Below, in pieces: positions 9,760 to 35,743 of a stretch of 64,000 nucleotides of DNA (the first letter of the stretch is position 1; each line of letters opens with the position of its first letter). Below the pieces are notes generated by a model. The model worked only from the letters and a program-made list of their open reading frames with translations. It had not been told where the DNA came from and ran no database searches. Source of the stretch: Eubacteriales bacterium (GTDB taxonomy: Bacteria; Bacillota; Clostridia; UBA1381). The position numbers were made by a program, and so were the translations under genes. The DNA is taken from the NCBI GenBank assembly GCA_018384175.1, contig JAHAZB010000114.1, positions 1 through 64,000 of the forward strand, given 5' to 3'.

Positions 9760-11619
9760 ATGAAAAGGAGATTATTAGCATTGCTTGCTGCACTTTCTAT
9801 GGTATCTATACCGGGGATGGTAATAGCAGAAGATGTCTACGAAACAACGTACATAACGAACGGTGATTTTGATCAAGGACTTTCCGGATGGAACTCTACA
9901 TGGCAATCGGGAAAGGGTACTATGACAGTTGTTAAGCACGATGGTGAAAATGTTGTGCATATGAAGACCGACACGGGCAGATGTTATCTTAGTCAGGATA
10001 TTCAGAATATTACTGAGGGAGATAAGCTTACGCTCTCATTCAGACTCAAGGTAGTAAGTCTTGCAGAAGGCGGTATGGCGAGTATAACCTTTGGTTTCCG
10101 TGATAAAGCAGGAGGATATATAACACAAAGCGGTTGGAACACTCAAATAGTAACCGGGGATAAGTGGACTTATAAAGGAATAGACTTTATTGTACCACCG
10201 GGTACAGGCTCTATGTATCTTCTGATTCGTCTATATAACGGCGGTGAGCTTTACTATGATGATGTTGATATCACAGATTTTGAGAATCAGACACATCTAA
10301 CTATTACAAACAAGGAAATGGAACTTCACACTTTGCCGGACGGACTTGACGAGGTAACTGCTAATCTTCACTATGTGCCAGAATATGTTGGAGAAAGCGG
10401 AAGTGTTGTTTTTGCTGCATACGAGGGTGAAAAGCTTGTTGCAACGAAAATCAAACCATTTACTGCACAAAAAACTACATATGTTAAGTCAACAATGAAG
10501 CTTCCGGAAAAATCAAAAGACATTACAGTTAAGGCGTATGTATGGAAGAATGGACAGACTTCTGACCCGATAGTAAAGAGTGTTGAACTTCCAAAGAAGG
10601 AAAGAAGCGAGGTTTTTGACATCTTTGTTAAGGACAAGATGCGCGGTGTATATGATTCTGTAGGTCTGTTTTATGATACAGCACGACAGAAGAAGCTTGA
10701 AGATATGGGAGTAAATACTTTCATATATAACATAATCGGCAACTTCAAGGGTGGAGATATAAATAAGAGTCCTCAGGCGCTTGATGAGGTTTGTGAGGAT
10801 ATGGAAAAGTACGTTGAAGAAACAGGAATACGTATTTTTATGAAGGCAAGCTATGGTGCTGATTCGGTTGTCGGCAACACCTCATGTGGTGAATATCATC
10901 CGGGTAAGGAAAATTCGCTTGATTTGCCTTGTCCGCTTTCTCAGGAGTATTGGGAAAAGGAAATGATGAGCAGACTAGAGGTTGTTGCAAAGCATCCCAA
11001 GATTGTCGGTGTAGTATTCGATATGGAGATGTACTCCGGCGGAAGCACGTACTATCCCGGCAAATGCCTTTGTGATAGCTGTGTTGAAAAATACTATAGC
11101 GAGCATAAAGATGATATGGCTATAAAGCTCAGCAACACAGATATTAACGAAAGAGCAGCGTTCCTCATTGAAAATGATTTATTTGATGATTATAACAAAT
11201 GGTTTGAAGAAAAGGTTGCAGAGGTTACATCAATAATGCGTGAAAGACTTCATGCAATAAATCCTAATCTCATAATCGGTGTTATGCCGCAGCTGGAATG
11301 GCCGGGAGGAATATCCAAAGGTCTCGGAACAGAGGAAATGCCGCTCGTGGTATTTGAGGAAAGGACTTATAAAGGTATAATAGGAATCAAGGATACTGCA
11401 AAGGCAGAAGCAGAACTTAATGATGACCCTGTAATCTTTGCAGTAGGTTTGTGGCCGAATATGGAATCTGCAATCAAAATAATTAACTTCGCATTTAAGA
11501 TTAAAGAAGCATATCCAAAGGATTTGGGCTACTGGATTTATTCAGGTGATCAGCTTGAAAACGAACCTAAGTATTATACCGAGCTTGAAAAGGCGAATAA
11601 TGAGATACTTGGCAGATAA
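9760..11619 (+). CDS. Secreted CBM4/9-like + putative novel catalytic domain protein (paralogue A)
   Basis: Signal peptide; ITNGDFDQGLSGWNSTW CBM-like region; MRGVYDSVG..., VVFDMEMYSGG, KCLCDSC, MPQLEWPGGISKGLGT, LGYWIYSG shared with 11676 and 31796 CDSs. Confidence 0.7.
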   Translation: MKRRLLALLAALSMVSIPGMVIAEDVYETTYITNGDFDQGLSGWNSTWQSGKGTMTVVKHDGENVVHMKTDTGRCYLSQDIQNITEGDKLTLSFRLKVVSLAEGGMASITFGFRDKAGGYITQSGWNTQIVTGDKWTYKGIDFIVPPGTGSMYLLIRLYNGGELYYDDVDITDFENQTHLTITNKEMELHTLPDGLDEVTANLHYVPEYVGESGSVVFAAYEGEKLVATKIKPFTAQKTTYVKSTMKLPEKSKDITVKAYVWKNGQTSDPIVKSVELPKKERSEVFDIFVKDKMRGVYDSVGLFYDTARQKKLEDMGVNTFIYNIIGNFKGGDINKSPQALDEVCEDMEKYVEETGIRIFMKASYGADSVVGNTSCGEYHPGKENSLDLPCPLSQEYWEKEMMSRLEVVAKHPKIVGVVFDMEMYSGGSTYYPGKCLCDSCVEKYYSEHKDDMAIKLSNTDINERAAFLIENDLFDDYNKWFEEKVAEVTSIMRERLHAINPNLIIGVMPQLEWPGGISKGLGTEEMPLVVFEERTYKGIIGIKDTAKAEAELNDDPVIFAVGLWPNMESAIKIINFAFKIKEAYPKDLGYWIYSGDQLENEPKYYTELEKANNEILGR

Positions 11620-11675
11620 CAAACGTAAGCTTTCAATCGTTTCAGATTGATGAACATAGAAAGGAGAAACACACT

Positions 11676-13931
11676 ATGAAAACAAAAATACTAAGCTTGA
11701 TTTTGGCAGCGTCAACAGCACTTGCAGGACTGGCAATGCCTGTATCGGCAGAGAAATTTTCCGATATTTCGGGCAGCCCTTATGAAGAAGCAGTAAATTC
11801 GCTTGCAGAACAGGATATCGTAAGCGGCAGAGGAGATGGAAGGTACGCACCTGATGAGGAGCTTTCAAGAGCGGAAATGGTTTCAATAATCTTAAGAGCA
11901 TACGGTTCAAGAGAGATTGAGGATATTGAGAAGTTTATTGACGTACCGACTACACACTGGGCATATATGCAGGTAGAAACTGCATATCAGATGGGAATTA
12001 TTGCAGGTACAACAGAAGTAACATTCGAGCCTGACGCAAAGGTTACATTTGAACAGGCAGTAAAGATGCTTGTTTGTGCAATGAAAAAGGAAAGCAAAGC
12101 TAAAAAGCTTGGCGGCTGGCCTGATGGTTACATTGCAGTAGCTGAGGAGGAAGAGGTTTTAGGTGGAGTAAACAGTTCAAAGGGCAACACCATCAACCGT
12201 GGTTCAATGGCACAGCTTGTGTATAACTGTCTTTCTAAAGACTCCAAGGACGGTTATATGATTGACTGGGATGGCATAGCAGATCATTATGACTGGATAA
12301 GAGATGAGAAAATCCGTGGCGCATACGGCTCAATAAACTATTATGATAAGGCGGACTCGGCGGATAATATACTCAACAAGCTTGAATCGACAGGTGTTAA
12401 TACTATTATTATGAATCTTTTGGGCGGTCCGGAAGGCGAACCCTATGATGACAGCACATGGGAAGGCCAAGTACAGATGATGGATTTTGCTGCTAAGTGG
12501 GATAATGAATGGGATTACCACACTTTTATAAAGATTAACTTTGGTGATAATGGCTTGGTAGATAATACCAAATACGGACAGTTCCATCCTGGTATCCCCT
12601 TGGATAGCTACTTCACAATTCCCTGTACACTTTCTGACGAGTATTGGGAAGAACAGCTTATAAAGCGTTCAGAAATGATTGCAGGCTATGATTTTGTTGA
12701 GGGTATCGTACTTGACTTTGAGATGTATTCGGGCGGTAAATCACAGTACACATCAAAGTGTATGTGCGACCGTTGCTGGAACAAGTATCTTACAGAAAAG
12801 AAATTGAAGGGCGAATGGGAAACAATCGCTCCTGAAAATCGTAATGCATATCTTATTAACAATGGCAAGATTGACGAGTATAATAAATGGTTTGAGGGTA
12901 AGGTTACAGAAAGATTTACCGAGATTCGTGAAAGAATCCATGCTGTAAATCCTGAAATGCTGATTGCCTATTTCCCTGCATACGAGTGGATTCCAGGTAT
13001 GACAAAGGGTCTCGGAACACCTGAAAAGCCTGTAATCGTATTCTCAGAGAATGAGTATTGGGGTTCATTGGCAGACACAGCTTCAAGAATGCAGGAGATT
13101 AAGGAAAATGATATTCCGGCAATATACTGTCCGGGACTTTACCCAGGAGCAGGTGCTTTAAGTCCTGAATTAACAACACTCAAAATCAGTCAGGCTGCAC
13201 CAACTACAACAGGATTCTGGATGTATTCAATGGAGCATATAAACCAGAATGATGCATACTATGGTGCTATTACCGAGGGTATCAAGAGCCTCGATGAAGA
13301 CCTTGCATCAGGCCAGCTTACTCCGCTCCCAGAGTATGAGATTAACACCTACACAGCATCAAAGATTAAGGGTGATACTCCGACAGAAGAAGAGTGGGAA
13401 ACGGCTCCTTTCACAAGTGATTTCGTGCAGTATCAGACAGGTGAACCGGTAGAACCTAAGACACAGTGTAAGGTTCTTTACAGTGATGATAACTTCTTTG
13501 TAAAGATTATAGCATATGACGATATGAGTAACGTATCTATGGGTGAGCTTCAGCAAAGAGATGCTAACCCGTGGGCAGGAGACTGTGTTGAGTTCTTCTG
13601 GGGATTTGACGGTGCATCAGACTGTGCACAGCTTGTTTCCGACCTTAACGGCTCAATCTGGGATGCATACTCAACAGGTGCAGGCTCAAAGAACACAGTT
13701 GTAGACTTTGAAGGCTTTACAACAGAAACAAGCTTCTATGACGACAGATGGGAAATGAGTCTCACAGTTCCAGGAACACTCGACGGTATCACCAAGATAA
13801 AGAAGGGTGATGTACTCCGCCTTGAAATCGGAAGATATCATAGGAATAACGGAACAAATATGTGCTGGGCACCGACCTACGGTTCATATCTTGGTGCTAA
13901 ATCACTCTTTGGTTATGTAACACTTAAATAA
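11676..13931 (+). CDS. SLH-domain protein + putative novel catalytic domain (paralogue B) + C-terminal CBM9-like/DOMON-type domain
   Basis: SLH repeats (FSDISGSPYEEAVNSLAEQDIVSGRGDGRYAPDEELSRAEM); IVLDFEMYSGG, KCMCDRC, GLGTPEKPVIVF; C-terminal WETAPFTSDFVQY...DDNFFVKIIAYDD... Confidence 0.7.
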   Translation: MKTKILSLILAASTALAGLAMPVSAEKFSDISGSPYEEAVNSLAEQDIVSGRGDGRYAPDEELSRAEMVSIILRAYGSREIEDIEKFIDVPTTHWAYMQVETAYQMGIIAGTTEVTFEPDAKVTFEQAVKMLVCAMKKESKAKKLGGWPDGYIAVAEEEEVLGGVNSSKGNTINRGSMAQLVYNCLSKDSKDGYMIDWDGIADHYDWIRDEKIRGAYGSINYYDKADSADNILNKLESTGVNTIIMNLLGGPEGEPYDDSTWEGQVQMMDFAAKWDNEWDYHTFIKINFGDNGLVDNTKYGQFHPGIPLDSYFTIPCTLSDEYWEEQLIKRSEMIAGYDFVEGIVLDFEMYSGGKSQYTSKCMCDRCWNKYLTEKKLKGEWETIAPENRNAYLINNGKIDEYNKWFEGKVTERFTEIRERIHAVNPEMLIAYFPAYEWIPGMTKGLGTPEKPVIVFSENEYWGSLADTASRMQEIKENDIPAIYCPGLYPGAGALSPELTTLKISQAAPTTTGFWMYSMEHINQNDAYYGAITEGIKSLDEDLASGQLTPLPEYEINTYTASKIKGDTPTEEEWETAPFTSDFVQYQTGEPVEPKTQCKVLYSDDNFFVKIIAYDDMSNVSMGELQQRDANPWAGDCVEFFWGFDGASDCAQLVSDLNGSIWDAYSTGAGSKNTVVDFEGFTTETSFYDDRWEMSLTVPGTLDGITKIKKGDVLRLEIGRYHRNNGTNMCWAPTYGSYLGAKSLFGYVTLK

Positions 13932-13962
13932 CTGGTATAGCGTAATACTACGATAATAACTT

Positions 13963-13993
13963 GTGTCAGGGGTGGATTATCCATGCCTGACAC
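13963..13993. other. Strong intergenic hairpin
   Basis: GTGTCAGG gg TGGAT t ATCCA tg CCTGACAC. Confidence 0.6.
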
Positions 13994-14100
13994 TTGTAAA
14001 TTATCGGTGTAAGAATATTTATGCAAAGTAGTCAGGTAGGTATTACTTATACAAGTATAGCCTGCATTTGTGTGAATAGGATAAAGAAAGGGACATATAA

Positions 14101-14991: not shown

Positions 14992-15005
14992 AAAGGTGGA
15001 TAGCA

Positions 15006-15382
15006 ATGTGAAAACTGATAAAGCATAACGGAAGTATGGCAATCAGCCATAACGGCAAAATCTACCCGCCGATGATGGCAACAATAGCTAATGTCAGTAA
15101 CGGAAAGTATCGGATTGACAGAAGAATAGTTCTTAATTCACTCAGCTGTCTTGACTGGGAAATAGGTAATTATGAACCGGGCTATCTTGCACCGAGTTTT
15201 TCGGCAAAAGAGGGCGATGGCGAGGTTGTAGGCAGATTTGGTGAAACGGGAAAGCCTGCAATAGCGGTAAAGAAGCTTGATGGCTATACATCTGTATTCT
15301 AAAGAAGAACTACGGCGAGAATACCGATGTAATCAAATGTAAAATGCGTTTTGGAGAAACCAAGATGTTCAGATTGAAGTAG
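15006..15382 (+). pseudogene. Internally deleted tandem copy of the downstream 15406-17700 glycosidase gene
   Basis: ATG-TGA AAACTGATAAAGCATAACGGAAGTATGGCAATCAGCCATAACGGC matches ATG-GGA AAACTTGTAAAGCATAATGGAAGTATGG...; retained WEIGNYEPGYLAPSFSAKEGDGEV and KKNYGENTDVIKCKMRFGETKMFRLK; centre missing. Confidence 0.85.
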
Positions 15383-15405
15383 CAGATAAAAAGGAGACGA
15401 AAACA

Positions 15406-17700
15406 ATGGGAAAACTTGTAAAGCATAATGGAAGTATGGCGATCAGCCACGGCGATAAGATTTATCCGCCGATGATGGCAACAATCGCAAATGTTGATAA
15501 TGGAAAATATAAGATTGACCGTGATTATTTAAGAAATCTTGGCGCAAACGGAATAAAGATATATTTCTTAATCTGTGATACCGAATGGATAAGACCTGAT
15601 GCCTTTGATAAGCTTGACGAAGAGGTTAAAATCCTTCTTGAGGAAGTGCCCGACGCACTTATCATGCTCAGAATCGGACTCCATCCGTCAAATGAGTGGG
15701 TAATGGAGAATTTGGATGAGTGCCTTACAATGCAGGACGGCTCACATCCGGGTGCATATCTTGCAACAGAATCGTATTATAAGGATATGCCTGCTTGTTA
15801 TACGCTATATTCAGACAAATGGCGCAAAAAAGCCGGTGAGTACTTGAAGGATACATATGACCGACTGATGCAAAAGCCGTATGCTGATAGAATTACCGGT
15901 GTGTTTATTGCAGCAGGTAATACATCAGAGTGGCGACAGTTAGGGCCTATAACAGACCCATTAAACGGTGTTTACGGCGACTTCTCCGAGGCATTAAGAC
16001 GTGAATATTCACTCTATCTTCGTGAAAAATACGGTACAGAGGAAAATCTCAGAAAGGCATGGGACGACCCTGAGGCAACATTTGATAATCCGAGAATACC
16101 GAATATGGAAGAGCGCTACTATGCTATGGATGCAAGATATGACTTGGCGGGCATAGACTATGATGTAAATAAAAGATGGAAGAATCCGAACCACGAGGTA
16201 TTGCCATCCTTCTATGAGGACGATACACATATCGGCTCGTTCCTGAATGTTGATAAGTATATGTCTGTATATGACTTCTACCGCGCGCGTTCAAACGGAG
16301 CGGCACGTTCGTTGATTTATTTCGGTGAGCTGGTAAAAGAAATGTCTGATAACAATTTGCTTGTCGGTGCATTTTACGGTAACTACGGAGCGTGTCATTT
16401 TACACAGTACGTTTCTATTTCATGTGTTTACGATGTGCTTAAATCAGGCGTTGTGGATATCTTCTCAGCGCCCGGTACATATCAGAACAGACAGCGTGGC
16501 GGCTTTGAGGGTCAGAGATGTATGTATGACTCAATGCGCATAAACGGCTCGATGTTCGTAGTTGAGGACGACACAAGAACCCATGCCGACCCAACCGAAT
16601 ACTGCCATGTGTATGACCTGTTCGGTATTGAGGACGACATAGATGTACTAAAGAGAAACTTCGGCAGAAATATCTGCGACGACTTGCAGGGCTGGTGGTT
16701 TGACCAGCTATGGGGCGGCGGAAGATATAAGTTTGACGAAACATATGCATTATTTAATGAGCAGTCAAAGATAGCGGAGGAAGCATATTCCTTAGACCGA
16801 GCTAAAAAGCACGAGATTGCGTTTATCTATGACGAGGAAAGTGTGCATATGATAGCACCGAAATCACTCCACGATACAGTAGAGTATATGCGTAACTATG
16901 AGGTTGCAAGAATCGGCGCAGGTGTAGACCAGTATTATCATAATGATATGTCAAACCCTGATATGCCTGATTATAAGCTGTATGTGTTCTTTAACGTTTA
17001 TTCGCTAAGTAACGAGGAACGTGAGGCTATCAAGGCAAAGCTCAGAAAAAATAACGCAACAGCAATGTTTATGTACGGTAACGGCGTAATAAATTTTGAT
17101 GCAGAACAAAGATTCTCAACAGCGAATATGACCGACCTTATGGGTATGGAAATAGAGATGGAGAATAACGTGAGAGTGCCGCTTTTTAGAAAGGAAGGCG
17201 ACCACGAGGCTGCAAAGGATATGGAAAAGGGCAGAAGCTACGGCGATTTGGACCGCCATATCCGCCTGTCCGCAGTTGGTATGAATGACTGGGAAATCGG
17301 AAACTACGAAAGAGGCTACTTAGCACCATGCTTCTCTACCAAAGAGGGCGAAGGCGAGGTTATTGCAAGATTCAGAGAAACCGGTAAGCCTGCTATGACC
17401 ATAAACGAATGTGATGGATATAAAGCGGTATTCTGCGGTACAAAGGTAGTAAGAGCGGCAGTAATACGTTCAATTGCACGTTATGCAGGATGTCATATCT
17501 GGGAGGATGGTGATGATGTATTGTTCCAGAACGATAACTACGTAACAATCCATGCATCAAGTGCAGGAGAGAAGACAATCCATCTTCCGAGAAAATGCAC
17601 ACCGTATGAAGTGTATGAGAAGAAGAACTACGGCGAGAATACAGACACAATTAAGGTTGATATGTATTTCGGCGAGACAAAGATGTTCAGATTAAAGTAA
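15406..17700 (+). CDS. Putative glycoside hydrolase (clan GH-A/GH42-like, cytosolic)
   Basis: 764 aa; YLRNLGANGIKIYFLICDTEW, GVFIAAGNTSEWRQLG, YSLYLREKYGTEENLRKAW; no signal peptide; family assignment tentative. Confidence 0.55.
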   Translation: MGKLVKHNGSMAISHGDKIYPPMMATIANVDNGKYKIDRDYLRNLGANGIKIYFLICDTEWIRPDAFDKLDEEVKILLEEVPDALIMLRIGLHPSNEWVMENLDECLTMQDGSHPGAYLATESYYKDMPACYTLYSDKWRKKAGEYLKDTYDRLMQKPYADRITGVFIAAGNTSEWRQLGPITDPLNGVYGDFSEALRREYSLYLREKYGTEENLRKAWDDPEATFDNPRIPNMEERYYAMDARYDLAGIDYDVNKRWKNPNHEVLPSFYEDDTHIGSFLNVDKYMSVYDFYRARSNGAARSLIYFGELVKEMSDNNLLVGAFYGNYGACHFTQYVSISCVYDVLKSGVVDIFSAPGTYQNRQRGGFEGQRCMYDSMRINGSMFVVEDDTRTHADPTEYCHVYDLFGIEDDIDVLKRNFGRNICDDLQGWWFDQLWGGGRYKFDETYALFNEQSKIAEEAYSLDRAKKHEIAFIYDEESVHMIAPKSLHDTVEYMRNYEVARIGAGVDQYYHNDMSNPDMPDYKLYVFFNVYSLSNEEREAIKAKLRKNNATAMFMYGNGVINFDAEQRFSTANMTDLMGMEIEMENNVRVPLFRKEGDHEAAKDMEKGRSYGDLDRHIRLSAVGMNDWEIGNYERGYLAPCFSTKEGEGEVIARFRETGKPAMTINECDGYKAVFCGTKVVRAAVIRSIARYAGCHIWEDGDDVLFQNDNYVTIHASSAGEKTIHLPRKCTPYEVYEKKNYGENTDTIKVDMYFGETKMFRLK

Positions 17701-17746
17701 ATCAATGAAACAGACTGTTGGGGATGTCGTATAGCGCTAATCAATC

Positions 17747-21700: not shown

Positions 21701-21839
21701 AGAGGTTGTATATGAGAAAGGCGACTTCTTCATAGGCTCTGGTGATGATATCTCAAGTCTTGAGTTTACCTTCACTAATAGTAATGACTTTATTGAAAAA
21801 GTAAAGGTTTACGTTCCCGAAGAAAACCCAATAGCATAA
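18795..21839 (+). CDS. Large secreted multi-domain surface protein (CBM-like domains, two GRG-motif LamG-like domains, Big_2 Ig-like)
   Basis: Signal peptide; LVNGAFSSCTNEAF; IADIQADGRGDFGSPW and MAGIRANGRGDFSVYD; MTFTSSSPAVADVTANGLITARRAGTATITATS (Big_2). Confidence 0.7.
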   Translation: MKTLFSLKVKIGAIFTAAALVSTALPMTGFAATASTAPELLVNGAFSSCTNEAFTVGEVHKVSIGANTIPDNWELHYNEAEYDTTSGTSQTFVFTGKTVLAMCGDAFSFTQKVKNIEPLTRYTLSFGAKTFQYAVAKVNFLNYDATTDTYKTIGEYVADYNAANEDQISLVSACIDAVSSAKDYTGVEVYIHGGSMPNNVPQERRLNFITPPYTNAVEVVLAADGDNAHPNQIIYYDNISLKRSAEVVNNGKFEDLQNSGYDTGWSKIHQSETLADGTQNGLFVVEGPGSTIYPQNQLLKVGQRYRVTFKYKHTLGETIANKDPNFAIVGAGADYTGIPFDPVAIGTDGDWTIYEGYFTAPEGKANPGSGLFNLNMLCRSRTLEAGEVWTTGDGQTMCYDNISIVEAPEMGVTSAGGAEIVYSPAYDGETVELIVAKYEPGTTNLVDIDRETIGADAKAGYVTKYVASLAASYDVKAFLWDGLGTMRPITSTITRESLVREVPYSNDFSSADDVARVSYQDISIREIGGSVDSNAFRTGTIGIEDGMLVQRNVTGYWFPTTPAFPQYLPRSVCGNGQLTIDFEPQSTGTLVLEVYRGYTADVAQDNRNMSGYDGVFGVYASDGTRIADIQADGRGDFGSPWEKTGWVAGTLDGNNWMYARTIKYEIDFTAKKYKVFFDDVQKTAGTQTEFEFTQSDASKLVYNFSQNGEAIDNIRIYKKITAEQAATAFELKVGETATAAITYTPATESMPDMTFTSSSPAVADVTANGLITARRAGTATITATSALYGKTLTWTVTVIDGRVVTPVALPYDSANAFATDGKEIADLEGWSVLNRLGSAVLETAGGKLVASGVTEKNGATGAVQAKLAFEPVPVVSGKLVIEVDYNGLTRDSNGYTIDGVAASEGILNLYSEAGVKMAGIRANGRGDFSVYDSGKDLVAFGGMGWQHGASLKLVLDMEAATYKVYRNGSEVVYEKGDFFIGSGDDISSLEFTFTNSNDFIEKVKVYVPEENPIA

Positions 21840-22092: not shown

Positions 22093-23376
22093 ATGAAATT
22101 CAAAAAGATTCTTGCAACAGCATTGGCATCAATAATGGCAGTATCACTTGCAGCTTGCGGCGGCAACGGTGATGTGGATGGTAAGGTAACACTTAAAATT
22201 GGTGTTCCCAACGGTGATACACTTACACCGTTTTCAATTATTGAAGAATTTAAGGCGGCTAACCCCGACATTAACGTAGAGCTTGACGAAGCACCATGGG
22301 GCGACTTTGCAACCAAGCTTACAACACAGATTGCAGGTGGCACAGCTCCTGATGTATTCATCCACGATTCAGGTGCGACAGCATCCTTCGGCGCAAACGG
22401 TGCAGCGATGGATTTATCAGAGAAGATTGCAGCAGATATAAATGCTGACGACTACATCAGTGCACTTTATGCTGCAAAGGATGCAGATGGTAAGGTTTGG
22501 GGTGTTCCTCACGGACTTAACGTTGTAGGTCTTTACTACAATGAAACACTCTTTGACGAAGCTGGTCTTTCATACCCTGACGAAACATGGACTATGCAGG
22601 ATGTGTTAGATGCTGCTAAAAAGCTTACACCTCCGGCGGATGCAACAGGTGCATCACCTGTTTACGGCTTTGGTCTTCAGTATTCAATCACAGTAGGCTG
22701 GTTGCCATTCATTATGTCAACAGGCGGCGCTCCGCTTAATGAAGCAAAAACTGAGTCTAACTTCAATGACCCGAAGGTATTAGAGGGTGTTAAGCTTATG
22801 AACGAGTTTGTTGAGGCTGGTGTTACACCTCCTGTTGCTTGGTACTCAACACAGGGCGGTCTTGAGTCTGCATTCGCCAATGGTAAAATTGCTATGGCAT
22901 TTATGAACAGCGCTGCTATGAAGGTTATTAATACAAACGGTGGTGATGCTCTTAAGTACAATGTAACTGCAATGCCTTTGGGCGCAGACGGTAGCAGAGA
23001 TACGGTTTACGTTCCTAACTGCTGGATTATCAACAAGGCATCAGCTCCTGAAAAACAGGAAGCTGCTTGGAAGTGGCTCAAGTTCTACTTAAGCGAAGAA
23101 ACACAGCTTAAGCTTGCAGAGGAAATCAGAGGTGGTTTCCCGATTCACAAGAAGGCAATTGAAGCTTGCCAGAAGGTTGAAACAAAGCCTGCTGACAGAG
23201 CTTTGATGCTCAAGTATCTCGACACAACAGGTACAACTCTTTGGGAGAACCCGTCGTGGTCAGAGTGGAGAGAAAAGATGGATAAGGCTTGCTTGGAAAT
23301 GGTAGAAGGCAGAATGGAGCCTGAACAGGTTGTTGAAACAGTACACAAAGAGGTATCTGAGGTATTGGCAGACTAA
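22093..23376 (+). CDS. ABC sugar transporter substrate-binding lipoprotein
   Basis: Lipobox AVSLAACGG; extracellular solute-binding family 1 pattern; followed by two permeases. Confidence 0.92.
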   Translation: MKFKKILATALASIMAVSLAACGGNGDVDGKVTLKIGVPNGDTLTPFSIIEEFKAANPDINVELDEAPWGDFATKLTTQIAGGTAPDVFIHDSGATASFGANGAAMDLSEKIAADINADDYISALYAAKDADGKVWGVPHGLNVVGLYYNETLFDEAGLSYPDETWTMQDVLDAAKKLTPPADATGASPVYGFGLQYSITVGWLPFIMSTGGAPLNEAKTESNFNDPKVLEGVKLMNEFVEAGVTPPVAWYSTQGGLESAFANGKIAMAFMNSAAMKVINTNGGDALKYNVTAMPLGADGSRDTVYVPNCWIINKASAPEKQEAAWKWLKFYLSEETQLKLAEEIRGGFPIHKKAIEACQKVETKPADRALMLKYLDTTGTTLWENPSWSEWREKMDKACLEMVEGRMEPEQVVETVHKEVSEVLAD

Positions 23377-23413
23377 TAGAGTTTAGCTAATCATTCCGAT
23401 AAGACCCAAATCC

Positions 23414-23482
23414 GTAGGGACCTGCCTCCCGGACGGTCCGCAAGTAATACTAAAACGGACTGTCGAGGACGCCGGTCCCTAC
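23414..23482. repeat. Complete dispersed palindromic repeat element
   Basis: GTAGGGACCTGCCTCCCGGACGGTCCG ... CGGACTGTCGAGGACGCCGGTCCCTAC. Confidence 0.85.
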
Positions 23483-23569
23483 GAATAAGCTTTATAGTAA
23501 ACCATTGTGGGGGACGGTCTCCGTGCCGCTCCGAAAATAATAATTGTGTTTCAAATGTATTATAAAAAA

Positions 23570-23690
23570 GCCTCCCTTGTGTAAAGGGAGGTGCCCCGAT
23601 GGGGCGGAGGGATTGTTAATAAACGCTATTTAATTTGCAAACCCCTCAGTCATTGCTGCGCAATGCCGGCTCCATTGCACAGGGGAGCCT
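23570..23690. repeat. Second repeat family (GCCTCCCTTGTGTAAAGGGAGGTGCC...CCATTGCACAGGGGAGCC), inverted-repeat ends
   Basis: Ends GGCTCCCCTGTG/CCTCCCTTGTGTAAAGGGAGG; partial relative at 58816-58863. Confidence 0.6.
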
Positions 23691-23720
23691 AATAACATTT
23701 ATAAATTGCCCAATGGTGGA

Positions 23721-24608
23721 ATGGAGGAGAAGCTCTTGCTTAAGAGAGACAGAAAATGGGGCTGGCTGTTTGTTAGCCCATATATACTGGGACTATTGAT
23801 GTTCTTCTTAGTGCCAGTAGTAACATCATTCTATTACTCATTCACAGAGTATAATATGATAAGTGCTCCAAAGTGGGTCGGACTTAAAAACTACATAGAT
23901 GTATTTACCGAACCTGACATATTGGAGGCTTACAGAAACACCTTCGCATTTGTAATAGCATACCTTCCGATAGAAATATTCTTATCGTGTGTGCTTGCAG
24001 TTGCGCTAAATCAGAAAATGAAGAGTATAGCCCTTTTCAGAGGCATATACTTTGTACCGGTCGTTGCTCCGATGGTTGCAGTAGTAGCTATCTGGGTAAT
24101 GCTATATAACCCGTTCGGCGGTATCTTTAACCAATTCTTCGGACTGTTCGGAATGGGTCCCTTTAAGTACGTATTCAGTGATAAATGGTATGTAATAATA
24201 ATTTGTATTGCAGTACTGTGTATCTGGAAGGGCGTAGGCTCACAGGCGATTTATCTTCTTGCCGCACTTCAGGGTGTAAGCGAAGATATATACGAAGCTG
24301 CAGACATTGACGGTGCAGGTACGGTTACTAGATTCTTCAAAATTACAATGCCGATGCTTTCACCGACAATCTTCTATCTTGTAATGACAGAAATGATTGG
24401 TACATTCAACTCCTTCGAGATATTCAAAATGATGACGCAAGAGGGAGCAGATTTACCTGTTATTGCAACATATGTTTACTCTGCAGCATTCGGAACAACA
24501 GCTAAGATAGGAATAGCGACTGCAATTGGTTGGGTAACCTTCGTAATAGTAGGCTTGCTCACAATTGCGCAGAAAAAGGCAGAAAAGAGGTGGGTATATT
24601 ATGAGTAA
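23721..24608 (+). CDS. ABC sugar transporter permease (MalF/UgpA-like)
   Basis: EAADIDGAGTVTRFFKITMPMLSPTIFY (EAA loop). Confidence 0.92.
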   Translation: MEEKLLLKRDRKWGWLFVSPYILGLLMFFLVPVVTSFYYSFTEYNMISAPKWVGLKNYIDVFTEPDILEAYRNTFAFVIAYLPIEIFLSCVLAVALNQKMKSIALFRGIYFVPVVAPMVAVVAIWVMLYNPFGGIFNQFFGLFGMGPFKYVFSDKWYVIIICIAVLCIWKGVGSQAIYLLAALQGVSEDIYEAADIDGAGTVTRFFKITMPMLSPTIFYLVMTEMIGTFNSFEIFKMMTQEGADLPVIATYVYSAAFGTTAKIGIATAIGWVTFVIVGLLTIAQKKAEKRWVYYE

Positions 24609-25434
24609 TACAAGCAAGAAAATGCGTGTAGTACAGTACGTAATATTTATCCTTGTAGCAATAACGATGATAGCCCCCTTTATATACGCATTGGCAATAT
24701 CCTTGCAGGGACCGGGTCTTGCATATAAATCACCCCCGGTATTATTTAAGCCGCCATTTATGTGGAGTAACTACACAACGATACTTACTAAATATGACTT
24801 TGTAAGATATTTTGGTAATACATTGCTTATAACTGCAATTTGTATGATTGGTGGAGTAATATCCAACTCAATGATTGGATTTGGTTTTGCAAAGTACGAC
24901 AGTTCAAAGGGAATAAATGCACTCTTTAATATCGGACTTTGCACAATGTATGTACCGAGTGTTGCAATGATGATTCCGATGTATGTAATCTGGGCAAAGG
25001 TAGGAGCACTTGATACATATATCCCACTTACATTAGCTGCATATTTCGGTGCAATAAGCTGGATATTCTTAATCAGACAGAACTACAAGAATCTGCCTAA
25101 CTCATTCTTTGAGGCAGCGTACATAGACGGAGCGAATCCGTTTTATATCTGGTGGAAAATATATATGCCGCTTATAAAACCGATAATCGCGACGGTAATG
25201 CTAAGAATCTTTATGCAGGAGTGGAATAACTTGCAGGCTCCGCTTTTGTATATTACAACAAAGAGTAAATACACTGTTTCACTTGCAATGGCTGCAATTT
25301 CGGGAGACGCAGTAGGCAGACCGGAGATACAGATGGCAGGTGCGGTAATTATGATAATCCCTGTTATAATCGTATATATGTTTGCACAAAGACAGTTTAT
25401 TGGCGGTCTCGCTGCAGGCGGAGACAAGGGTTAA
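24601..25434 (+). CDS. ABC sugar transporter permease (MalG/UgpE-like)
   Basis: EAAYIDGANPFYIWWKIYMPLIKPIIATV (EAA loop); overlaps upstream permease. Confidence 0.92.
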   Translation: MSNTSKKMRVVQYVIFILVAITMIAPFIYALAISLQGPGLAYKSPPVLFKPPFMWSNYTTILTKYDFVRYFGNTLLITAICMIGGVISNSMIGFGFAKYDSSKGINALFNIGLCTMYVPSVAMMIPMYVIWAKVGALDTYIPLTLAAYFGAISWIFLIRQNYKNLPNSFFEAAYIDGANPFYIWWKIYMPLIKPIIATVMLRIFMQEWNNLQAPLLYITTKSKYTVSLAMAAISGDAVGRPEIQMAGAVIMIIPVIIVYMFAQRQFIGGLAAGGDKG

Positions 25435-25454
25435 TGGAAAGAAAGGAAGGTTTT

Positions 25455-27574: not shown

Positions 27575-30256
27575 ATGAAAAATACTAAAAGGCTTATTGT
27601 AACGCTTCTTGCGTTAGTGCTCCTTTCCCTTAATATTACAGGTTTTGCTTACTATACAGGCGATGTAGCAGAAAGTGAATATCCTGCTAAGTTTGAAACG
27701 GCAGTACAGACACTTTATGATTTGGGAATTCTTCCGGGGAATGGTACTTCTGGATATGAAAACACAGTTTCGCGTGAAGCTTTTGCAGGCTTTGTAAATG
27801 CTTTTGGTGGTACACAGGTTACAGCACCAACACCTGTTGAAGAAGACGTAACAATGGGTGAGGCTATCAGAATGCTTGTTGAAATGAGTGATAACGTTAC
27901 TCTTGCTGAGTATTATGGCGAATATCCGACAGGATATTTTGTAATCGGCGACCGAATGGGTATTACTCACGGCTTGGCAGCTGTACAGGAATATGACAAG
28001 ATTACATATGCGATGGCTGTTCAGATGCTTTACAATGCTTTGCGTATCACACCGGGTATTGTAAACACAGTAACATCAGGCGGTAAGATGGAATATGAGT
28101 ATGATGCAAGCTGCACCGTACTTACAGAATATCTTGATGTAACATTAAAGCAGGGCTTTGTTACAGCAGACGGCTTCTGGAGCCTAAACCCTGTAACACT
28201 TCCCGGCGACGATGGTATTATAATTGATGGTCAGGTTTACAGACTTAAGAATGATTTGACAGACGATTATGTCGGCTTCGAAGTAAACTACTATTATCAT
28301 GCTGAGGATGACCTTGTTGTTGCAATTGAAAAGACAAATAAGGCTAATAAGGTAGTTTTAAGAGGCTCAAATATCACTAAATTTACTTCGGACACTTATT
28401 TCTATGAGGTAGATGGCAAAGAAACAAAGTATCAGCTTGATGAAAACGTATATGTTGTTTCTAACTATCAGGCTAATATGGCAATTGGCATTGATATGTG
28501 GCCTGCCAATGCGGACGTAGTTCTGGTTGACTCTGATGGTAACAAGAAGTATGAAACTGTTTTAATTAAAACATATACAGAAATCGAAGTTCAGGTATTT
28601 GATGTTGAAAAAGAACAGTTGGTTTCAAAATCAGGTGCTATCTATAATGTACCGGAAGATGTGCCTGTAAGAATATATTCTGACGGCGAGCTTGTTGAAG
28701 CGGTAAATGTAAAATCAGGTAGCTATGCTACTATCGTAGTAGATGCAAATAATGACGTTCGTGAAATATATCTTTCTACAACTAAGATTAAAGGCGCTGT
28801 AACCACTTATGCTTCTGACACAAGAATAAGTACTGTTTCAGTTGATGGAGTAGAGTATAGAGTTTCAAACTCTATGGCAAACAGAAGTAATTTGGGAGTT
28901 GGTGTTTCGGGCACATTTGTTTTGAACTTCAAGGGTGAGATTGCAAACCTTGTTATCGGTGATGTTAAGACACCAGGCTCAATAAGCACACAGCTTGGAT
29001 ACCTTATCAAGATGCGTAAGGTTATGGGCGATACAGGCGATGTTTATAAAGCTAAAATTCTTACTACTAAGGGTACAATTGAAAATATCGAGCTTATTGA
29101 AACGGTTAAGGTTAATAAGGCGCGTGTTATAGGCGATGTTAGAGCATTGTTTGGTGCAACACTTTCAAACCCGGTAACAGGCGACTACACCAATGTAAAA
29201 AGACAGGTTATTGAGTATACAACCAATGAAGAAGGTAAGATTACCAAGATTGGTACTGCACTTGTGTACGATACACAAAACAATAGAATTTCTTCACAGG
29301 TACAGTACGGCGATTACAAACTCCATGAAAGTATGGTAGGTTCGGTGCTGTATGGCGGCGGTTCATTCAATCAGCAGCTTCTTATTGGTGCTAATACGAT
29401 TGTATTCTGCGTCCCGGCTGATGAGACAAATGAGGACGAATATAACTTTGCTATTAACAGAGGCTTGGAAAATCAAGCAACTAACGACATTATTGCATAC
29501 AACTATGAACGTAACGCACCTATAGCAGATGCTGTTGTTGTTAAGCAAGCGAGAGCAAGCGGTGTTACAGGTATGTGTGGCGGTCCTGGAGGCTCAGTTG
29601 ATACAGCTAATGACCCGATGATGATGGTAACAAAGGTTACTCATGAGTATCATGAGGACTATGGTGTTGGCTTTGATGTGATTGAATATGTAAATATCAA
29701 GACAGGTGCTGTTTCTAAGAAAATTCTTGCAGATAATGCTGATTGGGTTGTATCAAGTGGTAAATTAGGAAGCTTTACGCCAGGTAAGGGTTCTAAAGAC
29801 CTTAAACCTGGAGACCTCTTCCATATGTCAGAGAACGGACTTGGTGAAATAGGTACGGTTATGAAACATTATGATGCATCAGATGATTGTCTGGTAGAGG
29901 GAACAAATACTTCTGGCGCTGCATTCCATGGTAATGGTGCTGTGGGTTCTGTTGCACCTAATTTCTACTCGAGTGGAAAGTTGTTTGAGGGTTATCCTAT
30001 GTCTACTGCGGCTGATAATATTATAATTTCAAGCTTGGCAACTGATACATTTGTAACTGCAGACAGAGCAAACCTGAAATATTTTAAGAAGCATGATTCT
30101 CATACGGTGGTTTATAAGATTAAGGTAAACGGTAATACATCTGAGTACGAAAAGAGTACACTTGATGCTATTGCTCCGTCAGTAAACGGTAGCAGTAAAG
30201 CAGTTATCTACACTTCATGGGTACAGCTAATGGCAGTAATAGTATACGAACGGTAA
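27575..30256 (+). CDS. Large secreted SLH-containing surface protein of unknown function
   Basis: Signal peptide; N-terminal SLH-like repeats (EYPAKFETAVQTLYDLGILPGNGTSGYENTVSREAFAGFV). Confidence 0.7.
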   Translation: MKNTKRLIVTLLALVLLSLNITGFAYYTGDVAESEYPAKFETAVQTLYDLGILPGNGTSGYENTVSREAFAGFVNAFGGTQVTAPTPVEEDVTMGEAIRMLVEMSDNVTLAEYYGEYPTGYFVIGDRMGITHGLAAVQEYDKITYAMAVQMLYNALRITPGIVNTVTSGGKMEYEYDASCTVLTEYLDVTLKQGFVTADGFWSLNPVTLPGDDGIIIDGQVYRLKNDLTDDYVGFEVNYYYHAEDDLVVAIEKTNKANKVVLRGSNITKFTSDTYFYEVDGKETKYQLDENVYVVSNYQANMAIGIDMWPANADVVLVDSDGNKKYETVLIKTYTEIEVQVFDVEKEQLVSKSGAIYNVPEDVPVRIYSDGELVEAVNVKSGSYATIVVDANNDVREIYLSTTKIKGAVTTYASDTRISTVSVDGVEYRVSNSMANRSNLGVGVSGTFVLNFKGEIANLVIGDVKTPGSISTQLGYLIKMRKVMGDTGDVYKAKILTTKGTIENIELIETVKVNKARVIGDVRALFGATLSNPVTGDYTNVKRQVIEYTTNEEGKITKIGTALVYDTQNNRISSQVQYGDYKLHESMVGSVLYGGGSFNQQLLIGANTIVFCVPADETNEDEYNFAINRGLENQATNDIIAYNYERNAPIADAVVVKQARASGVTGMCGGPGGSVDTANDPMMMVTKVTHEYHEDYGVGFDVIEYVNIKTGAVSKKILADNADWVVSSGKLGSFTPGKGSKDLKPGDLFHMSENGLGEIGTVMKHYDASDDCLVEGTNTSGAAFHGNGAVGSVAPNFYSSGKLFEGYPMSTAADNIIISSLATDTFVTADRANLKYFKKHDSHTVVYKIKVNGNTSEYEKSTLDAIAPSVNGSSKAVIYTSWVQLMAVIVYER

Positions 30257-30270
30257 GTATTGACATTATA

Positions 30271-30300
30271 AGCAGACGGTGCGAAAAAAGCACCGTCTGC
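30271..30300 (+). other. Intergenic hairpin (possible processing/attenuation site)
   Basis: GCAGACGGTGC-gaaaaaa-GCACCGTCTGC, no obvious U-tract. Confidence 0.55.
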
Positions 30301-30332
30301 AAAGTGCTTATATAAAAAGGATGGAGACAATT

Positions 30333-31724
30333 ATGATAGACACAAATAACAAGGCAGAGAATGTCAAAATTGCATATATCGGCGGAGGTTCAAGAGGCTG
30401 GGCGTGGAAGCTTATGAGCGACCTTGCAAGAGAGGAACAGTTATCCGGCGAAATAAGACTGTATGATATTGACTTTGACGCTGCAAAAAAGAATGAAATA
30501 GTATGGCAAAAGGTAGAAAAGCTTGATGATTGCAAAGCGAAGTGGAGCTGTAAGGCAGTTGAAACATTAAAGGAAGCCTTGACAGACGTAAACTTTGTAG
30601 TAATATCAATTCTTCCGGGAACATTCGATGAGATGGAAAGTGATGTACATCTTCCTGAGAAGTATGGTATATATCAGTCTGTTGGTGATACAACAGGCCC
30701 TGGAGGAATAGTAAGAGCACTGCGTACAATGCCGATGTTTGAGGAGATAGCCCTTGCGGTTAAGGAATATTCACCTGATGCATGGGTAATCAACTATACA
30801 AACCCGATGGCACTTTGCTTAAAGGCTCTTTATATGACATTCCCCAAGATTAAAGCTTATGGTTGCTGCCATGAGGTATTCGGAACACAGAAGCTATTGA
30901 GTAAAGCATTAGCTGATATAGAGGGAATAAAGGATGTACACTTTAAGGATGTAAAGGTAAATGTAGTTGGAGTAAACCACTTCACATGGCTAACCGAAGC
31001 ATACTATAAGGATATGGATTTGTTCCCGGTATATAGACGTTTCTGTAATAAGTATGGAGAAACAGGCTTTGAGCTTAAGGATGATGAGAACTGGATGAAT
31101 AAGTTCTTCCAGACAGGCGAAAGAGTCAAGATGGATTTGTTCAAACGTTTTGGTTATATAGCAGCAGCGGGAGACAGACACTTAGCAGAGTTCTGTCCAT
31201 CCTACTGGTACATATCTGACCCTGACAGAGTAGAGGAGTGGGGCTTCGGCTTAACACCGGTATCGTGGAGAAAGGACAATCAGAAGAAGCTCTTGGATGA
31301 GAGTGAGAGATTGGTAAGCGGAGAGCAGGAGTTTGAGATAAAGGATTCAGGCGAAGAAGGAGTAAAGCAGATGAAAGCCCTTCTTGGACTTGGAGACTTT
31401 ACAACAAACGTAAATATGCCAAACGTAGGACAGATACCGAATCTTCCATTAGGAACGATAGTTGAGACAAATGCATCGCTTACATCAGGAATGATGAAGC
31501 CGGTATTTGCAGGCGAGATACCGGAGGAGATACTGCCATTGATAAGCAGAGTAGCAGCAGAACAAGAAACAGTTGCAAAGGCAGTAAAGGAGAGAAATCT
31601 TGACCTTGCATTTGATGCATTCGTAAGCGATCCGCTTGTTACAATTCCGCAGGAGCAGGCGAAGGAGCTCTTTGATGATATGATAGATAATACTAAAAAA
31701 TATCTTTCGATGTACAATCTGTAA
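30333..31724 (+). CDS. Glycoside hydrolase family 4 (alpha-glucosidase/alpha-galactosidase-like, NAD-dependent)
   Basis: IAYIGGGSRGWAWKLMSDLA; VGDTTGPGGIVRALRTMP; NYTNPM; CCHEVFG; VVGVNHFTW. Confidence 0.9.
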   Translation: MIDTNNKAENVKIAYIGGGSRGWAWKLMSDLAREEQLSGEIRLYDIDFDAAKKNEIVWQKVEKLDDCKAKWSCKAVETLKEALTDVNFVVISILPGTFDEMESDVHLPEKYGIYQSVGDTTGPGGIVRALRTMPMFEEIALAVKEYSPDAWVINYTNPMALCLKALYMTFPKIKAYGCCHEVFGTQKLLSKALADIEGIKDVHFKDVKVNVVGVNHFTWLTEAYYKDMDLFPVYRRFCNKYGETGFELKDDENWMNKFFQTGERVKMDLFKRFGYIAAAGDRHLAEFCPSYWYISDPDRVEEWGFGLTPVSWRKDNQKKLLDESERLVSGEQEFEIKDSGEEGVKQMKALLGLGDFTTNVNMPNVGQIPNLPLGTIVETNASLTSGMMKPVFAGEIPEEILPLISRVAAEQETVAKAVKERNLDLAFDAFVSDPLVTIPQEQAKELFDDMIDNTKKYLSMYNL

Positions 31725-31735
31725 TAAAGCATCTG

Positions 31736-31766
31736 CGGAGAAGACGGTTGTCGTCTTCTCCGTTTT
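31736..31766 (+). terminator. Rho-independent terminator after GH4
   Basis: CGGAGAAGACG-gttgt-CGTCTTCTCCG-TTTT. Confidence 0.8.
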
Positions 31767-31795
31767 GCAATATTTATGAAAGGATATAGTTGTTT

Positions 31796-34700
31796 ATGAA
31801 ACATATATCGAAATTTATATCTGTTCTGATTTCTATGATACTCATAGTATCAGCATTTTCAGGACTTTGTGTAAATGCCGCAGCGACAGCACAGAGTACC
31901 CCTTACTTCAATGATTTTGATACAGAAGGTTATAAACCTTTAGAATCGGACGGTTTTACTGTAACAGGCCTTGCAGAAGGAGCTACTGTTGCTGTATCCG
32001 ACGGAAAGCTTGCAGTGTCCGGCATAGCTGACGTAACTAACCCAGATGGCACAACTACAAATGGATTGGTCCAAAATCAGTTTGCAGAGCTTTCTGTGAA
32101 CCCCGTGAGTACAGGTTTTATTGTTATTGAAGCAGAACTTCATGTAACAAATACTACTAGTGTTAATCCGAATTTTAATGCATCCAATGGTTTGATTAAT
32201 GTTCTTGACTCAAATGGGAATATGGTAGCAAACACATATCTGAGCGGTCGAGGAGCAACAAGACTTACTTCAAATGGTGGAGCTGTTGATGTAACATCGA
32301 CTTGGTCGGGGACAGCACGCTCGTGGGGACATGAAGCGAGTACATACGGCATAAAGTATGAAATTGATTTTTCGACCAGGAAGTGGAAGGGATATCGTGC
32401 TTCAGGTGGAGTTACAGGCACATATATGCAGTATACCACAACTGATGGGGTTAATGAATTTTCATTTGCAAACGCTAATGCTACTGATATTGCAAAAATA
32501 CAGTTTTTGCTCGGCGTAAACGGAATGAGTGTTGACAAAATCAAAGTATACAGTATCGTAGAAGCTGTACAGACTGAATCGGGTTATAATATGACAGTCG
32601 GAAGCACACAGCAAGCAGGAATTTCCTACACACCATCTACAGAAACAATGGGCGATATGGTATGGACAAGCACTAATACAAATGTTGCAACTGTAAGTAA
32701 TACAGGCCTTATTTCTGCGGTTGGTTATGGAAAGAGTGTTATTTCTGCGAAGAGTGCTTTCTATGGCATTGACTTCGAATATGCAGTATGTGTAGATTCT
32801 TCGACGGTTACAGCACAGGCGCTACCGTATATCAATTATTTTGATGATGAAACAAAATTTCCTGCCGGATACAGACCGATGAAAAAGGATGGTTTCACTA
32901 CATCGAATATGGTTTCCGGAGCATACATAGAGTCTGATGGTACAAGACTTGTTATGCACAGTGATTCGGAAATGGGCAGTACAGGAATGGGTAGAATAGA
33001 ACTTGAATTTTCGCCTATTTCATCTGGAATATATGCAGTTGAGCTAAATTATGGGAATGTAAGTGGCGAAGTTGATGCTACTGCCGGAGATCAAGGTATG
33101 TTCGGAATTTATTCCTCTGACGGAACCAGAGTTGCTGATATCCGTGCAGCCGGACGAGGCCCCAATGGCGACCAGATGCTGGTGAACGGTCAATGGCAAA
33201 ATGTTGTAGATAATAACAACTGGATGTATGGTGGAACAATCAGATACGAGATAGACTTTACAAGCAAAACTTACAGAATATATCAACAGGGAAGACTACT
33301 TTCAGATACGAGCACCGGACAAACTGATTTTGCATTTACCGGGAATAATATATCGAAGCTAATTTTTGTTCTTTCAAATGACGGCGACTTTGTTGATAAT
33401 ATCAAGGTTATGAAATGTGTGTCAGCAACTCAGCTTAAGACAGAATACAAGCTACAGCCGGGAGAAAGAACAGCGCTGACAAGCGATGGTATGAAAATTA
33501 CCGCAGGCTCAGTTCGTGATTTTACCTTTGTATCCAGCAATCCGAGTGTTGCTACAGTTGCGAGTAACGGAAGAGTATTAGCAGTTGATTACGGAACAGC
33601 GATAATTACAGTAACTAATGAAATCAATAGAATAAGATTTGTGTTTGTAGTTACTGTTGAAGCTCCGGCAACAGAGATTACTATTGACCAGTCGGACAGA
33701 GTTATATACACAGGCGAAAGCTTCCGTCTTACATATACTGTGCCTGTATCTCAGGATGAGGGTACTGTAACGTGGTCAAGTAGTAACAAGAATGTTGCCA
33801 CAGTCGGAGCAGATGGTGTCATAAATGGTATAAGTTCCGGAACTGCGGTTATTACTGTAACGAGTGAGAATGGTGTATCAGCAGACTATGTTATTGAAGT
33901 AGTAGATTTTGATGACAGCGCACCGGCAATAGAAATCAATAATGCAGATTTTGAAAAATCGCTTAGTCGTTGGGTATACGATTCCTATAATACCGCAAAG
34001 GCGGTATGGTCATCGGGCGGTGCAAATAATTCTTCGGGTTGTGCTAAGTTTACAGAACAATCTTATATATCCCAATCTTTTACAAACCCAGAGCCTGGGG
34101 CAATCTATACAATTAGCTTTATGCTGAAGATAGTATCACTTGAAGAAGATTCATATGCATCAGTAGAGGTTGAAAGCTACGGTTATGATAATGTTGCGGG
34201 TGCGAGCTATTCAAAGGTAACTAATGGTTGGGAAAAGAAATATATAGAATTTGTGGCACCAAAGGGATGTGTAGGTCCTGTGATTCTTTTAAGATTTGAC
34301 GGCAATGGCGAAGCATATTTCGACGAAGTAAGAATTACAAGACAAAAGGATGCGACAGAGGTTAGACTCTTCAGTGATGGTCTTGCACTTAATTCTCTTG
34401 TTAAAAATGCACCGCTTACGACAGCCGAGGTGTATTATGTTCCCAAAACAAGTGGAACATCTGAAATCATATCAGCGGTATATGAGAACGGTGAATATAA
34501 AACAAAGACAAGCAAGCCAGTTTCTTCTGATAACGGAATTCAAAGAATAGATGATTTAATTGACATAGATGCGCTTAATGAAAATTCAACAGTAAGCATT
34601 ATGAACTGGAATGCTACCGAAGAAATGAAAGCACTTGATACAAAAAAGACATTCCTTGAAAAAACACAAAGAAGCGATGTATATAATTTCTTTGAAATTA

Positions 34701-35743
34701 ACAGAATGCGCGGTGTTTACGGTGGAATTGGAGATATTTATAATCCTGAAATCAAAAAGCTGATAACTGAAAAGGGAATCAATACATTGATTCTGAATAT
34801 AATCGGTACATATCATAATGGAGATGTTTGCCGTGATATGTATGCACTAAGCAAGGTGATGGATGATGCCCAAGCACTTTCAGAAGAAACCGGAGTTAAA
34901 ATCATTCCGAAAATTTCATATGGTGCAAATGCAACTGTATCAAATACTGCATATGGTGAGTTTCATTCAGGCGGTATTATGAAGAATGGAGCAGGTGTTG
35001 TAGTTGCAAGCTCCAATGCTCCGTGTCCGAGGTCAAGAGAATACTGGAAGAAACAGGTAACAGACGTTCTTTCTACTGTTGCATTACACAAGGGAATTTA
35101 TGGCGGAGTAGTCGATTTGGAGATGTATAGCAGTTACCGCACAAGCTATGGCGACACCTGTAAGTGCGACACTTGTGCTGCTGATTTTGACAGTGCGTAT
35201 GGTACAAAGGTTGCTCAGCAGGAAATTACTACCAGACATAAGTATCTGGCGGATAATAATATGCTGACAACATATAATGCATGGCAAAAAAACGAAATTA
35301 TCGACATTACAGATGAGGTAAGAGAAGCAATACAGACAGTAAATCCTGATTTTGTGCTTGGATATATGCCTCAGCTTGAGTGGATTGCCGGTATAACAGA
35401 AGGTCTCGGTACACATAAAATGCCGGTTATGGTATTTAACGAACAGGAGTACAAGGGCAATCTTGGTGCAATGTATATGAATCAGGGTAGAATAAAGTAT
35501 AACGATTTGCCGGCTGTTTATGCAACAGGCTTGTGGTCGACAAAAAATACAGGCACCTATTCATATCTGGCATCTGACGTGTTTGCCTCTAAAGCTGTTG
35601 AGGCAGCTGAAAACTCAATGGGATATTGGATATATTCAAGTTTATATCTTGTCGGAACAGGAAATACAGCAGAAGAGAATGCAGCATATATCGCAGCAAT
35701 AAAATCAGCAAATGACACTATTAATACAAAATACGGATTATAA
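31796..35743 (+). CDS. Very large secreted protein: two GRG-motif LamG-like domains, Ig-like domains, CBM-like domain and putative novel catalytic domain (paralogue C)
   Basis: VADIRAAGRGPNGDQ; TVTWSSSNKNVATVGADGVINGISSGTAVITV; INNADFEKSLSRWVYD; MRGVYGGIG, VVDLEMYSS, TCKCDTC, YMPQLEWIAGITEGLGT, MGYWIYSS. C-terminal half co-linear with the 9760 CDS. Confidence 0.7.
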   Translation: MKHISKFISVLISMILIVSAFSGLCVNAAATAQSTPYFNDFDTEGYKPLESDGFTVTGLAEGATVAVSDGKLAVSGIADVTNPDGTTTNGLVQNQFAELSVNPVSTGFIVIEAELHVTNTTSVNPNFNASNGLINVLDSNGNMVANTYLSGRGATRLTSNGGAVDVTSTWSGTARSWGHEASTYGIKYEIDFSTRKWKGYRASGGVTGTYMQYTTTDGVNEFSFANANATDIAKIQFLLGVNGMSVDKIKVYSIVEAVQTESGYNMTVGSTQQAGISYTPSTETMGDMVWTSTNTNVATVSNTGLISAVGYGKSVISAKSAFYGIDFEYAVCVDSSTVTAQALPYINYFDDETKFPAGYRPMKKDGFTTSNMVSGAYIESDGTRLVMHSDSEMGSTGMGRIELEFSPISSGIYAVELNYGNVSGEVDATAGDQGMFGIYSSDGTRVADIRAAGRGPNGDQMLVNGQWQNVVDNNNWMYGGTIRYEIDFTSKTYRIYQQGRLLSDTSTGQTDFAFTGNNISKLIFVLSNDGDFVDNIKVMKCVSATQLKTEYKLQPGERTALTSDGMKITAGSVRDFTFVSSNPSVATVASNGRVLAVDYGTAIITVTNEINRIRFVFVVTVEAPATEITIDQSDRVIYTGESFRLTYTVPVSQDEGTVTWSSSNKNVATVGADGVINGISSGTAVITVTSENGVSADYVIEVVDFDDSAPAIEINNADFEKSLSRWVYDSYNTAKAVWSSGGANNSSGCAKFTEQSYISQSFTNPEPGAIYTISFMLKIVSLEEDSYASVEVESYGYDNVAGASYSKVTNGWEKKYIEFVAPKGCVGPVILLRFDGNGEAYFDEVRITRQKDATEVRLFSDGLALNSLVKNAPLTTAEVYYVPKTSGTSEIISAVYENGEYKTKTSKPVSSDNGIQRIDDLIDIDALNENSTVSIMNWNATEEMKALDTKKTFLEKTQRSDVYNFFEINRMRGVYGGIGDIYNPEIKKLITEKGINTLILNIIGTYHNGDVCRDMYALSKVMDDAQALSEETGVKIIPKISYGANATVSNTAYGEFHSGGIMKNGAGVVVASSNAPCPRSREYWKKQVTDVLSTVALHKGIYGGVVDLEMYSSYRTSYGDTCKCDTCAADFDSAYGTKVAQQEITTRHKYLADNNMLTTYNAWQKNEIIDITDEVREAIQTVNPDFVLGYMPQLEWIAGITEGLGTHKMPVMVFNEQEYKGNLGAMYMNQGRIKYNDLPAVYATGLWSTKNTGTYSYLASDVFASKAVEAAENSMGYWIYSSLYLVGTGNTAEENAAYIAAIKSANDTINTKYGL

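Follow-up and report, generated by a model that had tools for sequence, protein, structure and literature searches.

This locus of a gut bacterium raises the question of what is done by a domain that occurs in three of its proteins and matches no family named in the libraries searched. The window, meaning the whole stretch of DNA analysed, comprises 64,000 nt of the Eubacteriales bacterium contig JAHAZB010000114.1, and the three proteins (P1, P2 and P3) were taken from its list of open reading frames.

Three paralogues and their shared domain

A block of about 337 aa was common to the three proteins, with P2 and P3 showing 37-40% identity to P1 in pairwise alignment and with its motifs in co-linear order. 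In a tblastn-type search of the own genome, the P1 block returned the other two copies with E-values of 4.6e-73 and 7.2e-68, and exactly three copies were present in the 1.98 Mb assembly, so the paralogy is far beyond chance. An earlier note on this DNA had described three paralogues with a block of about 330 aa, and this description was borne out (E<=7e-68). The homology between P1 and P3 spans about 590 aa and includes the carbohydrate-binding module (CBM) and the linker, not the barrel alone (618 columns at 32% from the CBM to the C-terminus). P2 has only the barrel in common with them. The features are as follows, where the P1 residue number equals the domain residue number plus 282.

9760..11619 (+): P1, with signal peptide (by eye), CBM_4_9, linker and barrel domain (ORF list, Pfam, own-genome search)
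10606..11616 (+): P1 barrel domain as modelled (alignment, AlphaFold model)
10927..10941 (+): P1 PCPLS, Cys391 (domain C109), predicted fourth zinc ligand (conservation; ligand role taken from GH42)
11020..11037 (+): P1 DMEMYS at the end of strand 4, Asp421 and Glu423 (domain D139 and E141), predicted catalytic pair (model, conservation, profile alignment)
11065..11082 (+): P1 CLCDSC, Cys436, Cys438 and Cys441, predicted zinc ligands (conservation)
11676..13931 (+): P2, with a signal peptide recognised by eye, then two SLH, the barrel domain and a CBM9-like region (ORF list, Pfam)
12270..13310 (+): P2 barrel domain, with PCTLS 12621-12635, DFEMYS 12714-12731 and CMCDRC 12759-12776 (alignment)
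31796..35743 (+): P3, with a signal peptide recognised by eye, then Big_2 repeats, a CBM and linker resembling those of P1, and the barrel domain (ORF list, Pfam, P1 alignment)
34640..35740 (+): P3 barrel domain, with PCPRS 35021-35035, DLEMYS 35114-35131 and CKCDTC 35159-35176 (alignment)

CBM_4_9 in P1 (37.8 bits), two SLH stretches in P2 and three Big_2 stretches in P3 were identified with Pfam, and the CBM of P3 was recognised by its similarity to P1. Among the accessory modules proposed before, the CBM of P1, the SLH of P2 and the Ig-like (Big_2) region plus CBM of P3 were thus retained; the CBM9 of P2 stayed under the cut-off (16.7 vs 23.4 bits), and no Pfam match to LamG was found in P3. 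The suggestion of secreted polysaccharidases was supported in the form of a likely secreted, glycan-cutting role. In addition, a repeated domain was seen by eye (with ...RGDF...MYARTIKYEIDF...) in 18795-21839, 25434-27554 and residues ~36-545 of P3, and no Pfam model matched it.

Family, superfamily and predicted fold

The three domains of the window gave only GHL10 in Pfam, at E 0.1, and none of 32 relatives passed any Pfam cut-off. One of these 32 members was touched by PF02449 (GH42, E 0.025), three by PF02638 (GHL10, best E 0.1) and none by PF14871 (GHL6). NCBIfam gave nothing relevant to the barrel domain, sequence searches of the PDB with P1 and with a three-row profile gave nothing convincing, and a literature search on the likely description of the family found nothing. 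The earlier statement that the block matches no named family therefore holds for the Pfam, NCBIfam and PDB sequence libraries searched.

Of the 42 sequences in the family set, three clostridial genomes supplied nine and a further clostridial genome supplied one; the rest came from Planctomycetota. Two further clostridial MAGs carried the same three copies as the window's genome, and one distant clostridial genome carried a relative (L028, 1642-3756, E 6.6e-28), in which D-x-E was retained and three of the four cysteines were lost. Of 398 genomes sampled from the window's phylum, the own genome was the sole match. Relatives were found in 5 of 393 genomes of a sample of the phylum Planctomycetota, the first one found included, and in 28 of 398 genomes of one planctomycete class searched with a better profile. 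In the tree, the divergence of P1, P2 and P3 predates the split of the three clostridial genomes, and the planctomycete sequence L016 is sister of the clostridial clade (support 99/98). Three weak matches were left aside: L030 (G381) is a GHL6 protein, L029 (G384) was counted outside the family and had no Pfam match, and the longest listed ORF at the G067 match was unrelated by eye.

When profiles were compared with hhalign, a 32-row profile of the family matched three targets: GHL6 and GH42, each with a probability of 97.1% and an E-value of 5e-11, and GHL10, with 95.3% and 2e-8. The scores were 68-89, against a maximum of 25.7 among fifty column-shuffled controls per target. After masking of the cysteines, E was 3e-6 for GH42 and 9e-6 for GHL6, and GHL10 was unchanged. 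A profile search of the PDB gave GH42 chains (E 2.9e-5 and 1.2e-4) and Cwp19 (E 9e-4); in the alignment with 6lvw, E141 was set on the Glu of the N-E pair and CYCDxC on CYCDxC. By sequence profile, these comparisons place the family in the GH42/GHL6/GHL10 superfamily, as distant kin of beta-galactosidases. The domain defines a genuine family of glycosidase-like proteins inside a known superfamily, with no name of its own in the libraries searched.

AlphaFold2, with nine sequences as input, predicted a (beta/alpha)8 barrel (pLDDT 92.9) whose eight strands follow in order (domain residues 12-18, 38-42, 76-82, 135-139, 223-227, 247-251, 276-282 and 308-312), which agrees with the TIM barrel predicted in the earlier note, and D139-x-E141 was placed at the end of strand 4. 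Foldseek, run on this model as that note had proposed, found only remote barrels among solved structures. The top one was Cwp19 (E 3e-9, TM 0.53), and the others included beta-amylase, GH50 agarase, GH42 3tts (TM 0.62) and chitinases.

With GH42 (PF02449; 3tts, 6lvw), the family shares the barrel, a Glu in the acid/base position at the strand-4 end and the layout of one Cys plus CxCxxC, but it has no strand-7 nucleophile, D-x-E replaces the N-E of GH42, and the second half is without detected similarity, since the local match covers strands 1-5 and ends after strand 5. GHL6 (PF14871, hypothetical glycosyl hydrolase 6) is likewise close by profile and has CxCxxC after strand 4 and an Asp at the strand 4 end; however, the position of E141 is a gap in the GHL6 alignment, and its Pfam model gave no match. 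GHL6 itself is a largely uncharacterised family. The match to GHL10 (PF02638; Cwp19, DigH) is independent of the cysteines, includes the top Foldseek structure, and has a strand-7 Glu on neither side, whereas GHL10 carries D-D-Y in place of D-x-E, with E141 falling on Tyr, one residue off the catalytic Asp, and the aligned GHL10 sequence lacks the cysteine cluster. GH18 enzymes and GH56 hyaluronidase share with the family an Asp-x-Glu pair where strand 4 ends and the lack of a distinct nucleophile on the enzyme, but this resemblance is functional and descent is not indicated; similarity to a GH18 profile was absent (0.5% probability) in a test of low power, as that profile held two sequences only.

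Gene neighbourhood and likely substrate

One gene order was kept in contigs from three genomes: AraC, P1, P2, SLH, a 764-aa protein, esterase, CBM, ABC genes, SLH/Big, an 893-aa protein, GH4 and P3. Three features of this cluster bear on regulation and sugar use.

8688..9545 (-): AraC-type regulator, recognised by eye, in divergent orientation to P1; position conserved (ORF list, gene-order comparison)
22093..25434 (+): part of the conserved cluster, a sugar ABC transporter made up of a binding protein and two permeases (gene-order comparison)
30279..31724 (+): GH4 protein near the alpha-galacturonidase LplD, immediately upstream of P3 in each of the three genomes (E 1e-150 to 3fef)

UxuA and a D-mannonate oxidoreductase were located upstream of one copy in one genome, and a GH106-type rhamnosidase was located in another. 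Together with the LplD-like GH4, these neighbours suggest uronate-containing, perhaps pectic, glycans as the targets of the clostridial proteins. NagA (35803-36963) was considered as a pointer to N-acetylhexosamine substrates and was set aside, because a 16-pair terminator-like hairpin (35750-35784) lies right behind P3, between P3 and nagA, and no nagA follows P3 in L034, the other genome where this region is visible.

Several other genes of the window are recorded here. The 764-aa protein (15406-17700) has no signal peptide by eye, is 75-78% identical across the three genomes and has no Pfam or NCBIfam match; it showed weak similarity to beta-amylase (E 0.001), its fold prediction gave no confident model (pLDDT 35), and it is possibly another unnamed glycosidase. 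The 893-aa secreted protein of the cluster (27575-30256) has no Pfam match. An alpha-L-rhamnosidase (50790-52688, minus strand, PF17389 and PF05592) was found about 15 kb from P3.

The planctomycete members L043, L044, L045 and L164 were located in polysaccharide-synthesis loci, with L044 and L045 adjoining a nucleotide-sugar dehydrogenase; L171 and L172 adjoin a glycosyltransferase. A general link to exopolysaccharide loci was not upheld, with about six of the inspected planctomycete contexts fitting it.

Conserved residues and the proposed mechanism

In the family alignment, position 139 was acidic in 39/40 sequences (Glu in L042 and two others, Asn in L039) and position 141 was Glu in 38/40. 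No other strand-end column exceeded 36% acidic, and the end of strand 7 (positions 278-282) was acidic in 0/37. The Glu of DxEMYS, which the earlier note had chosen as the first acid of a catalytic pair, therefore stands as a catalytic candidate. In L140 (1486-2637), D-x-E is replaced by ELGD, and this may be a natural inactive paralogue or a misalignment.

The second acid of that pair had been sought in QxEW or VFxExxY, and it is unsupported for the family as a whole because the columns of E231 and E252 were acidic in only 12/40 and 14/39, with Asn, Thr, Ser, Gln and Tyr as substitutes, while D-x-E was kept. Both residues were invariant in the ten clostridial sequences plus L016, and in the model they follow closely on strands 5 and 6; judged from the alignment, they are a property of the clostridial clade and its sister, conserved only there. 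Two carboxylates are usual in clan-type glycosidases, and the clade could thus consist of classical retaining or inverting enzymes using Glu141 with Glu231 or Glu252, a reading that we consider unlikely.

The CxCDxC loop had been taken as unusual, which was not borne out. A four-cysteine zinc cluster occurs in part of GH42. In Bacillus GH42 enzymes, the structural zinc is held by Cys113, Cys153, Cys155 and Cys158 around the acid/base Glu148 (PMC8573354), and the equivalents in the family are C109, C154, C156 and C159 around E141. By analogy, CxCDxC and the Cys of PC[PT] would form the same cluster, of whose four predicted ligands three had been picked out before. All four cysteines were present in 33/40 sequences by sequence pattern; the seven exceptions each lack at least two, which points to joint loss, and are spread over three separate tree groups.

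With moderate confidence, the domain is read as a (beta/alpha)8 glycosidase that represents an unnamed branch of the GH42/GHL6/GHL10 superfamily at family level, with Glu141 as acid/base, attack by a C2 group, a structural zinc and a uronate-glycan substrate. It probably cuts complex sugar chains through two neighbouring acids on one strand; in the usual arrangement, the acid pair lies on opposite strands. Glu141 at the end of strand 4 would serve as general acid/base, because it is aligned on the acid/base Glu of GH42. GH42's strand-7 nucleophile has no counterpart here, from which we infer that its part is taken by the substrate itself, whose acetamido or hydroxyl group at C2 would attack the anomeric carbon. 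D139, two residues before the Glu, would assist this attack in the manner of hyaluronidase and other D-x-E enzymes. In GH99, the 2-hydroxyl is used in a comparable way. Cwp19 of GHL10 also has no strand-7 Glu, with Gly328 there (PMC5765458), and hyaluronidase combines D-x-E with the substrate acetamido as nucleophile (PMC13080975). These three precedents favour Glu141 as acid/base with D139-assisted C2 participation; the uronate context needs no N-acetyl sugar, so the acetamido-assisted route is not specially favoured. The four cysteines would bind a structural zinc next to the active site without contributing to the chemistry. The clostridial enzymes, secreted or held at the S-layer, would probably cut uronate-containing polysaccharide, the fragments of which may be imported by the ABC transporter and then finished by the LplD-like GH4.

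Cwp19, which leads the Foldseek matches and lacks the strand-7 Glu, is a lytic transglycosylase (PMC6016235), and with the GHL10 profile match and the SLH domains of P2 this would suit a peptidoglycan-acting domain in which the leaving group is protonated by a single acid and attack by a hydroxyl within the sugar produces anhydro ends. Such a role is improbable, as the conserved cluster with CBMs, ABC sugar importer and LplD-like GH4 fits nutrient glycans, and a housekeeping wall enzyme would be far more widespread than a family matched only in the own genome among 398 of the window's phylum. A catalytically inactive barrel for carbohydrate binding or structure, which would account for the missing second family-wide carboxylate and the lack of a characterised relative, is very improbable, since sequences of ~20% identity have kept D-x-E almost without exception at the barrel's catalytic end, which is hard to explain without catalysis.

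The substrate-assisted glycosidase reading is preferred. More tentatively, and with somewhat more doubt than confidence, the family may constitute a new GH family, in which a GH42-like scaffold kept the zinc cluster and the acid/base Glu, has no strand-7 nucleophile and uses the strand-4 D-x-E with C2 participation, as a bridge between two-carboxylate and substrate-assisted enzymes. If this mechanism is true, it would give a path from a two-carboxylate barrel to a one-strand, substrate-assisted enzyme. The domain family is new to the Pfam and NCBIfam libraries searched and offers one clear residue to test, and it points to uncharacterised gut enzymes for uronate-containing glycans, with relatives in planctomycete exopolysaccharide loci.
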